Source: Bryobacter sp. CoA8 C33 (GTDB lineage: Bacteria > Acidobacteriota > Terriglobia > Bryobacterales > Bryobacteraceae). Taken from it: DNA of 64,000 bases. This document shows, in pieces, positions 34,641 to 36,873 of this stretch. The stretch is from NCBI GenBank assembly GCA_019931185.1, contig JAINDK010000003.1, positions 1 through 64,000 of the forward strand. The letters run 5' to 3'. A program made the position numbers and the translations under genes. Within the stretch, counting starts at the first letter, position 1, and each line of letters opens with the position of its first letter. The notes beneath the pieces were generated by a model, which saw only the letters and a list, made by a program, of their open reading frames with translations, did not search any database and had not been told where the DNA came from.

Positions 34641-34979
34641 CGCCTATTACACTTATCACACGACCCGGCGCCGCATCTTCCAACCCAGCAGCAAAAGCGC
34701 TCTTCCCCTCATCGCCCACGAGCCCGGTGTACCCACAATCAGATCCTGTAAGTCCACCTTGCACAGCGCCACGATGCTCCCGTTTGGAGTGCCCACCCGA
34801 TCCAGTGCACTGTCCAGCAAATTCCATGCCGCGGTCAGATAGCCAGTGTCCGATCCTGCTAACCAAATTATGCACAGCAAGCGCAGCCTGACCGCTAAGC
34901 TTTGTGGCAACAGCGCATCCGCCATCGGCAGCCGGTGATTGTGCCAGTAATTTGGTCTTCGATATCTCTCCATTCGGCC

Positions 34980-35180
34980 CCGTTTGGCGCCGGGCCATCG
35001 CGCCATGAGTTGGTCGAAGCGATTGCGTTCCTGATACCGGGCCCCAAAGTGGATTTTGGTTTGCCCGCCGTGACGCGTAATCCTGGCGGCCAGATACAGC
35101 AGGCGCAAACGATTCGTGACAACAGTCCGATGCGTCAACTCGGGTACGGTGAGCGACTCTTCGCGCTCAAACAGCGCCAG
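34980..35180 (-). pseudogene. transposase C-terminal relic, probably IS1380-like
   Basis: A minus-strand segment reads ELTHRTVVTNRLRLLYLAAR followed by ITRHGGQTKIHFGARYQERN and a short RFDQLMARW tail. This pattern of basic strand, LYLAARI and a terminal arginine-rich segment is like the end of IS1380-family DDE transposases. No start or catalytic domain remains, since it abuts the truncated reverse transcriptase directly on its upstream side. The boundary on the left is uncertain; the frame stays open to 34656 but no longer looks like transposase. Confidence 0.5.
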
Positions 35181-35352
35181 CTAACCACCCGACGACAGCC
35201 GGTTCCAGAGCTTGTACAGGCTCCCGGTGAGCCGGGCCTCAAAGTCCTGGATCGACTGCCAGCCACCCCAGCCGCCCCTTGGTTGCCTTCACACGTTGAA
35301 AAGCCTCCCAGACAGCTGCCTTCGCCATATCAAATGGCTTTACCTTGTTCAT
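35181..35352 (-). pseudogene. group II intron reverse transcriptase (LtrA-type), N-terminal fragment with frame disruption
   Basis: From the ATG at 35352 the frame reads MNKVKPFDMAKAAVWEAFQR and VKATKG, the standard N-terminus of group II intron-encoded proteins. Around 35290 the frame is disrupted, probably by lost single bases. The adjacent frame then continues WQSIQDFEARLTGSLYKLWN RLSSGG before a TAG at 35181-35183. The homologous protein continues for another 350 or so residues, which are absent. The palm with YADD and the maturase domain are therefore gone. Confidence 0.72.
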
Positions 35353-36044
35353 GCGGCTCCTGCCGTTGCTGGGTTGCCGCCCGCCAAGGCTCGAATGCCA
35401 CAACCCCTTCGGTCCAGCGCCATTACAGCACCTTCGCCCCTACTACGGGTTGTTCTGCCCCTGTGTCCTCGCCTCGGTGCTCAGAGCCTGACGGGGATCA
35501 CCCCCTCGGCTTTCTCCCTTCGCATCGAAGCAATAAGTTCCCATGTTCCGTCAAAGAGCCTGATCCAGAGTCACGCCGCCTTCGAGCCGGATGCCGCCAA
35601 GGCCGGGCTTCAGGACTCCGCCATGACTGATCCCAGAGCGACCATCAGCCCCGGTTTCGACATCAACCATGCATTTTCGGCAGTTCATCGACGGTTCGCT
35701 TTCGCCCGTCTCTCTGGACCTTGCCTGATGGGATCACGTCCCTTCGTTTCCGCGACGCTCACCAACATCGCTCTTAACGGCAGCAACTCGCGGTGGTTTG
35801 AACCCTGATCCTGATCCCCGGCTTCGAGGGGCCCGCCCTCATCATCTCTCTCAGCTCCGCGACGGCCCAGCAGCTTGTCGGCGAACTCGGCTCGTCCATC
35901 CTGTCTCTTTCCAGCTGTTTTCAGTTCCTCGTGTGAAATTCGCGATACTTCCACTGGAACCGGCAACCGATGGCCTTTGTCAAACCCTCAGTTTATTCTC
36001 TTAACTTTATGCGGCCCATTGCCGCCACCGCGTTCGTGGCACAC
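35181..36044 (-). mobile_element. degenerate group II intron (5' ribozyme domains and start of the encoded reverse transcriptase)
   Basis: Minus-strand sequence from 36044 begins GTGTGCCACG, the GUGYG type of group II 5' end. The roughly 690 bases down to the reverse-transcriptase ATG at 35352 carry blocks I know from bacterial group II introns. Examples are ATGCGAAGGGAGAAAG (about 35510), CCCGTAGTAGGGGCGAAGG and CTGTAATGGCGCTGGACCGA shortly before the ORF. The encoded protein is truncated at 35181 and the 3' domains V and VI are missing, so the intron cannot splice. It appears inserted in an IS66 transposase gene. Identification rests on remembered sequence pattern, without folding. Confidence 0.72.
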
Positions 36045-36426
36045 GATGATGTGCGTACCTGTCGACCAGCATCCGCGCCAACAGTCACGGGCCATCCAGG
36101 CCACGATCGATCACCCTGCCCGGGGCAGGCGCCTGCACGATTCGCGAGCAGCATGAGCAGCTCAGCTTGGGCCGCACGATGCGAATCACCTTGAAGTAAC
36201 CCGGAACCAGGTCGAGCATCTCGCTGGTGTCTTCGCCCAGCCGTCGCAGCGCGCCACCACACTGGCTGCATTGCTGTTCGGCGGGGGCAATCGTCTGTTC
36301 TTCGCGGAGCAAGTCCGCCGGCAAAGGGCAGCGGGCAGGCAGGGACCGCGGCGCTGCGTCAGCGATGGGAGATGTTGCCGGACGGGCGGCTTCCGCCGTT
36401 TCCAGAGCCTCGAGGCGAAGTTCCCA
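36045..36426 (-). pseudogene. IS66-family transposase (TnpC) fragment
   Basis: The minus strand encodes an IS66 TnpC zinc-ribbon region: PADLLREEQTIAPAEQQCSQ then CGGALRRLGEDTSEMLDLVP, GYFKVIRIVRPKLSCSCCS and IVQAPAPGRVIDRGLDGP. An in-frame TGA (36085-36087) replaces the expected codon, after which LLARMLVDRYAHH matches the next IS66 block. Homology ends exactly where the group II intron begins (36044). Upstream it is bounded by a TAA at 36427-36429. It is therefore a dead, 5'-truncated IS66 interrupted by the intron. Confidence 0.8.
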
Positions 36427-36873
36427 TTAGTGCACTTCGCGCAGGGTCTTCTCTGACTTTGCCGCGATTGATCGAAAGTCACCTGACGAAGTGTAGTTTC
36501 AAACGAGAACGGTTTGGGCTGAGCTATGGGGTCCTGAATGACGCGCTCCATGGGCGCGGAGTGGATATTCCGCAGGGCTGCTCGGCAGGGCAAGGAGTGC
36601 GAAGCGGCGTCGGCGCGGAGCAAACCACTGACGCGCGAGGGGTAAGGCTTCTCGGCCAGCGGAGCACGATGCAGATGCAGCAGGCAGCTAGACGGGACGA
36701 GAGGCCCGGATGAATGGATGCTTTGGCAAAAGTCGCGGTGAAGGTTGAGAGTGATGCTCGCGATGGCAGGCAGTGAAGCGGCGAAGTCCCGCGCAGAAAC
36801 GAAAACAGCGCCAATGTGGAGGCACTGTTGCATGTTGATTCCACAACAAATTTCAATAAAGGAGAAGAACCAG
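36427..36873. other. 447-bp stretch with no gene, leading into the small ORF
   Basis: No recognisable coding family is seen on either strand. The left part probably still belongs to decayed mobile-element sequence. The last 60 bases are A/T-richer and lead to the AAAGGAG site of the small ORF, so they may hold its promoter, but no convincing -35/-10 pair was found. Confidence 0.45.

Follow-up and report, generated by a model that had tools for sequence, protein, structure and literature searches.

How did a group II intron, an IS66 transposase gene and the tail of an unrelated transposase come to lie end to end on the minus strand of an acidobacterial genome, each of them broken? The window, the whole 64,000-nucleotide stretch analysed, comes from Bryobacter sp. 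CoA8 C33, for which the assembly is a 138-contig draft; the junctions described here are known from contigs alone and could include a misjoin. The original prediction, made from the sequence alone, proposed an intron nested in IS66 and cut by an IS1380-like tail. Our analysis supports, with a probability of about 0.9, a reading in which a mobile group II intron retrohomed into the IS66 transposase gene tnpC, was later hit by an IS256-family element and was joined by deletion to an IS1380 element, leaving the present remnant. The layers, all on the minus strand, are as follows.

36045-36459, minus strand: remnant of the IS66 transposase gene (tnpC), forming the 5' exon of the intron (PF13005; tblastn with intact TnpC)
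36018-36044, minus strand: first 27 nt of the group II intron (GTGTGCCACGAAC...), a 5' end common to L003, L106 and L109
35867-36017, minus strand: left end of an IS256-family element (terminal sequence, leader and decayed transposase start) in intron domain I (matches in same-family genomes)
35182-35866, minus strand: remaining group II intron, comprising the rest of the ribozyme 5' domains and the start of the reverse transcriptase (RT) gene (homology to other introns)
35723-35840, minus strand: group-II-D1D4-2 core (RF01999, 87.9 bits, E 2.2e-16)
35182-35352, minus strand: start of the intron-encoded RT/maturase, frameshifted and cut at 35182 (tblastn with the R. etli RT)
34863-35181, minus strand: 3' end of an IS1380 element with a C-terminal transposase remnant (copies in the same genome; NF033539 in the C24 copy)

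Profile search identified the TnpC zinc finger (zf-IS66, PF13005, E 1.7e-17) in a minus-strand frame at 36085-36324. An intact same-family TnpC (L086) aligned by tblastn with positions 36459-36046 at 57.6% over 144 columns, and two other intact same-family sequences gave 54.9% (L087) and 53.2% (L088) against the remnant, which contains two in-frame stops and lacks both the residues before approximately 63 and everything past the DH motif. The DDE transposase domain (PF03050) was absent from the window, and for this reason the IS66 copy is regarded as a remnant; elsewhere in the genome no whole TnpC was found, just two partial DDE matches on contigs C72 and C2. The TnpC alignment ends at the H of the conserved motif DH|LPLYRQ, the second residue of the motif, position 36045 (C) is base 1 of the leucine codon, and the intron 5' end GTGTGCCACG reads on from 36044. 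This 5' end reads as the group II consensus GTGYG and is identical to the start of two related introns (L106 and L109). The predicted abrupt stop of TnpC homology at the intron border was thus recovered to the nucleotide.

Within the intron, RF01999 exceeded its cut-off of 36 bits and was the sole Rfam match at gathering threshold in the 64 kb window, which supplies the group II fold proposed as a check for the 5' region and, together with PF13005 and the tblastn stop at DH|L, bears out the nesting of a group II intron in an IS66 transposase gene. At the DNA level the window intron is 91% identical to an intron of another genome (G135) over 35866-35576, 79% identical to an R. aethiopicum intron over 35858-35188 (673 columns) and 78% identical to an R. 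etli intron; homology to other introns extends down to 35182 and then ends. The R. etli RT was matched by tblastn in two frames, with residues 1-29 (65.5%) at 35352-35266 and residues 33-56 (83.3%) at 35258-35187, placing a frameshift between 35266 and 35258. The RT remnant is about 56-58 residues long, so that no complete RT/maturase is encoded, in agreement with the disrupted frame of approximately 55 residues noted at the outset. Domains V-VI (RF00029) were found at three related loci (L106, L109 and L110) and were not found at the window locus (L031) or at L043; their absence from the window indicates a remnant rather than an intact intron.

The same TnpC codon is occupied in other genomes. 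A junction pattern run over a collection of 84,980 genomes returned four stretches, and the junction pattern scan of viral contigs gave no match. In the Acidobacteriia MAG Umea_bin-03433 (L003/L108) the intron is preceded by ..SKYCDH|A and its homology is gone soon past the core, and in R. aethiopicum HBR26 the IS66 TnpC flanks the intron on both sides, with the RT in two frames. An Opitutia contig (L107) carries the exon motif GKYADH|C, but its upstream sequence lacks TnpC; the fourth stretch (L105) was discarded as a chance pattern match in which neither RT nor TnpC was found. Plasmid searches added R. gallicum, which has kept RT pieces and the 3' junction, and R. etli pRetNXC12d, where an intron lies at the same TnpC codon with IS66 accessory genes upstream. 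The R. etli intron is approximately 1858 nt long (its 3' end being inferred) and contains an open 419-aa RT frame, 72.3% identical in pairwise comparison to a 419-aa S. meliloti RT; after the intron TnpC resumes as LPLYRQ.

Every same-site copy seen uses the same codon, and this could be interpreted as a single entry into an ancestral IS66 followed by inheritance, the common site then reflecting shared descent and not re-use. Of the alternatives weighed here this is the best surviving, yet we consider it improbable. The introns share 78-79% of their DNA sequence, whereas the TnpC exons of the window and R. etli have only 58 of 133 residues (43.6%) in common; for the window and G163 the count is 16 of 55. 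Four intronless TnpC sequences share 83/136, 74/132, 77/132 and 58/135 residues with the window TnpC, so that three of them are nearer to it (56-61%) than is the R. etli exon and the fourth is equal (43.0%). Additionally, the 91%-identical intron of G135 lies outside IS66 behind a matching GACCACC, and L044 gave no TnpC hit. Because the introns are this alike and their exons have diverged, the window intron seems, on these identity values, to have moved between IS66 lines that were already distinct.

Re-use of one codon raises the matter of target recognition, which was addressed by scoring the pairing of the last seven exon bases with every column of an intron alignment, G-U pairs allowed, for introns with a known exon. 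The elements assigned in the window are listed below.

36045-36051, minus strand: IBS1 (CATCATC), exon bases -7 to -1, covarying with EBS1
35640-35646, minus strand: EBS1 (GATGGTC), 6 of 7 pairs with IBS1, from covariation over 14 introns and a further set
36054-36058, minus strand: candidate IBS2 (GTACG), among the best second pairings in the scan, 4 of 5 pairs
35669-35673, minus strand: candidate EBS2 (TGCAT), from the pairing scan, weaker than EBS1

From 35 intron loci, 12 without a clear 5' motif (leaving 23) and then 4 of insufficient length for alignment were removed, giving 19 aligned introns, 18 of which had letters at the EBS1 column and 14 of which were scored. Those left out of the 14 were L003 and L028, where intron homology is lost before the column, and L022 and L027, where the site is unknown. 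The scored introns carry seven target labels, with L015 (an IS66-like sequence outside IS66) kept apart and L006 labelled YADD with no RT found before it. At the EBS1 column (column 484) the mean was 6.57 of 7 pairs in comparison to a cross-target mean of 2.68, none of 20000 exon shuffles reached this score and the next best of 261 columns gave 4.57; the mean is 6.25 if L003 and L028 are counted in. Since these 14 introns had also served to choose the column and the shuffles ignore shared ancestry, a further set was aligned. Fifteen loci had a 5' end; 12 of them were used, the other three repeating earlier introns, and one of the 12 had no letters at the column. Six of the resulting 11 introns had 6-7 pairs and five had 3-5, with a mean of 5.36 in comparison to 2.95 across targets. 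Two other candidates for EBS1, a GATGATG noticed by eye beside the RF01999 core and column 312 (the best for eight introns with 6-base windows), were both outscored by column 484 when all target types were used.

The R. etli EBS1 (GGTGGTC) makes 7 of 7 pairs with GATCACC, and at exon base -2 a C-G pair in the rhizobia corresponds to T-A in the window, both sides having changed. Mismatches are present in the window, one in EBS1 and at least one in EBS2, which reaches 4 of 5 pairs at best. A second pairing involving exon bases -10 to -14 is likely, from the same scan, to represent EBS2-IBS2. The G163 copy has A at -1, where a leucine codon needs C or T, and shows no recognisable EBS1 (3/7). That the intron landed in IS66 by chance (ectopically), without recognising a target, could be argued from the related introns that occupy non-IS66 places (L015/L044, L006 and L124, all with no TnpC hit), but the window EBS1 pairs at 6 of 7 positions with its site and 5' junctions at this codon are found in three other genomes. 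Re-use of the site by relatives, taken with the EBS1 match, makes retrohoming likelier than chance insertion, which is rated lower still than inheritance from one ancestral entry.

Related introns were found in an assortment of other targets. On two Microvirga plasmids they lie within a transposase gene at WHVD or WHLD; one of these transposases (L110) matched the IS6 model NF033587 with an E value of 2.1e-25 but below its cut-off, and the other (L111) was judged by eye. In Caballeronia the interrupted frame resembles, by eye, an IS3 OrfB. Under stricter filters, 24 of 200 family genomes contained RF01999.

Several further loci are recorded as observations in their own right. In G195 (L009/L045) a related intron lies in an IS66 tnpB-like frame (KILYW|, by eye), and the RT gene of this intron is itself interrupted by a long reverse-strand frame resembling a serine recombinase (by eye). 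Seven related introns from the family or class (L002, L004, L010, L012, L028, L029 and L134) have 5' junctions directly behind the stop codon of outer-membrane genes; the host gene matched OMP_b-brl_4 (Pfam) in four of four tested, and three more end LKLxF*. The YADD (or YVDD) active-site motif of RTs other than their own is interrupted by related introns at L007, L014 and L023 and on S. meliloti pSymA (L114:759). RVT_1 was detected before the intron at L007, L014 and L023 and not at L006, and at L049 RT homology picks up again past the intron. At L008 a related intron lies in an FGE-sulfatase gene.

The suggested comparison with intact copies from the genome itself, meant to locate the exact insertion site, found no partner of the same type. 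No second RF01999 was present among the 150 of 335 candidates scored in the 5.05-Mb assembly, and at the DNA level the intron part matched nowhere else in the genome. The genome does carry a different group II intron (L145, C64:20694-21557 and around), with RF02005 at 171.2 bits and RF00029, which is apparently complete as judged from these matches; its RT, a 601-codon frame, is 38% identical to that of R. etli. A broken RT piece was also seen on contig C26.

Inside intron domain I lies a layer that the original prediction had missed. The segment at 36017-35867 (151 nt) follows intron nt 27 and is absent from all 18 other introns aligned. Of 237 same-family genomes, 12 contain matches to it, 16 in total, and 14 of these matches begin at the same edge to within 5 nt. 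At four of the five loci read (L063, L064, L067 and L082) the segment opens an element with a 402-403-codon frame, the frame at the fifth (L080) being 189 codons, and the L064 element encodes a 403-aa IS256 transposase (NF033543, E 7e-108; PF00872). Since the segment matches the starts of IS256-family elements and other introns do not have it, an IS256-family element is concluded to have entered domain I. The fragment ends exactly at the insertion point (35867/35866) with no target duplication by eye, and no intron bases are missing there by eye in comparison to G135. By eye, no right terminal repeat was found in the sequence beyond 35867, so that this element too is a remnant, the rest of it having been lost. 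That the 151-nt segment is instead a natural extension of domain I, as its location within the intron and the unseen right repeat and target duplication might suggest, is very improbable in view of the 18 introns that lack it and its match to element starts, four of five with a transposase frame of 402-403 codons.

At the other end of the locus, the unrelated IS1380-like tail was confirmed to abut the RT remnant. Positions 34863-35181 recur elsewhere in this genome at 90-97% identity, with a 46-nt contig-end piece at 100%, and the coding piece is 95-97% identical to three copies. Near 35000 the copy in the window lacks 46-74 nt that three other copies have. The C-terminus of the C24 copy matched NF033539 (E 7.6e-12; 44.6 bits, the whole-protein cut-off being 180), and the copy also matched PF13701. 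The junction between intron and IS1380 has no filler by eye and the IS1380 3' end faces outward; given this orientation, one deletion could explain the loss of domains V-VI, the 3' half of tnpC and the 5' half of IS1380, in place of several. Among the other copies in this genome, one (L032, C40:23100) is broken approximately 10 nt or less from the break of the window copy. At three others (L036, L039 and L040) the match covers only approximately 145 nt at the IS1380 3' end; two of these diverge at the same TTTCAA (by eye), and the three are possibly short non-autonomous derivatives.

The history that we infer would begin with retrohoming of the intron into IS66 tnpC, through pairing of EBS1 and probably EBS2 with the codons for Y-x-(D/H)-H|L-P-L-Y-R-Q, the insertion point falling between bases 1 and 2 of the leucine codon. 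An IS256-family element would then have entered the intron 27 nt from its 5' end, decay sparing only the left end of the element, and a separate deletion would have joined RT codon 56-58 to the interior of IS1380. That deletion would have taken away the rest of the intron (RT and domains V-VI) along with the 3' portion of tnpC and the 5' portion of IS1380. The fossil thus preserves a partial order of invasion, in which IS66 was followed by the intron and the intron by the IS256 hit and the IS1380-joining loss, these two in either sequence. The order first proposed, from IS66 to intron to truncation, therefore stands, as do the nesting and the disruption. The count of three dead layers has to be raised to four, and the loss of activity is to be read as an expectation, in that the present remnant should neither splice nor move.

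In a broader context, we lean towards viewing the locus, with considerable room for doubt, as a fossil of a cross-phylum intron group re-aimed many times through EBS1/EBS2 change at conserved codons, namely those of IS66 tnpC (DH|LPLYRQ), IS66 tnpB, IS6 and IS3 transposases, the YADD of other RTs and FGE-sulfatase, and at the base after the OMP_b-brl_4 stop, with the tnpC codon serving as a dedicated homing site. If this is true, a dedicated tnpC site would allow the intron to track one transposon family through Acidobacteriota and rhizobia and to disable it. With this locus IS66 joins the homing targets, at a defined codon used in both of these groups, and the relatives make up a naturally retargeted series, EBS1 covarying with target, that is useful for studying or engineering target choice.

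A close likeness to the window intron is the ltrA intron of R. etli pRetNXC12d (WP_198388374), 96.5% identical to the R. aethiopicum intron, which shares the IS66 tnpC codon and the 5' end; unlike the window copy, it has an open RT frame and domains V-VI, and no IS256 or IS1380 damage was seen in it. In the available portions of papers naming both group II introns and IS66, no intron in IS66 is described, which does not prove absence. The accessible part of one table (PMC8934634) lists a short RT call beside a zf-IS66 domain (AHX61471.1) that could be a similar intron/IS66 fusion. According to the available sections of PMC5894124, RmInt1 and RmInt2 of Sinorhizobium meliloti (class D / IIB3) have natural targets in insertion sequences, ISRm2011-2 and the inverted repeats of ISRm17, the RmInt1 IEP has no endonuclease domain, and both homing to insertion sequences and decay through 3'-end loss are known, as in the fragment FRE652 truncated in domain IV. 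ISRm17 was considered as a possible IS66 element and set aside, as it is named ISNCY in the accessible text of PMC10194956. The 419-aa RT of the R. etli relative resembles RmInt1 in having RVT_1 and GIIM domains only, without an endonuclease domain; unlike RmInt1 and RmInt2, the window intron targeted IS66 tnpC and not IS630 or ISRm17, resides in an acidobacterial host and carries IS256 and IS1380 layers. A further parallel is TeI of Thermosynechococcus elongatus, a single lineage comprising families with different EBS and targets that prefers mobile introns and insertion elements, as given in the available part of PMC2882425. To the extent of that account, both are one intron lineage split by EBS sequence and target; TeI is confined to one genome, whereas the targets of the window's relatives vary across bacterial phyla and include conserved protein motifs. 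The window intron itself is best read as a new, dead case of homing to IS66, of the previously known type in which RmInt1-like retrohoming is followed by decay.
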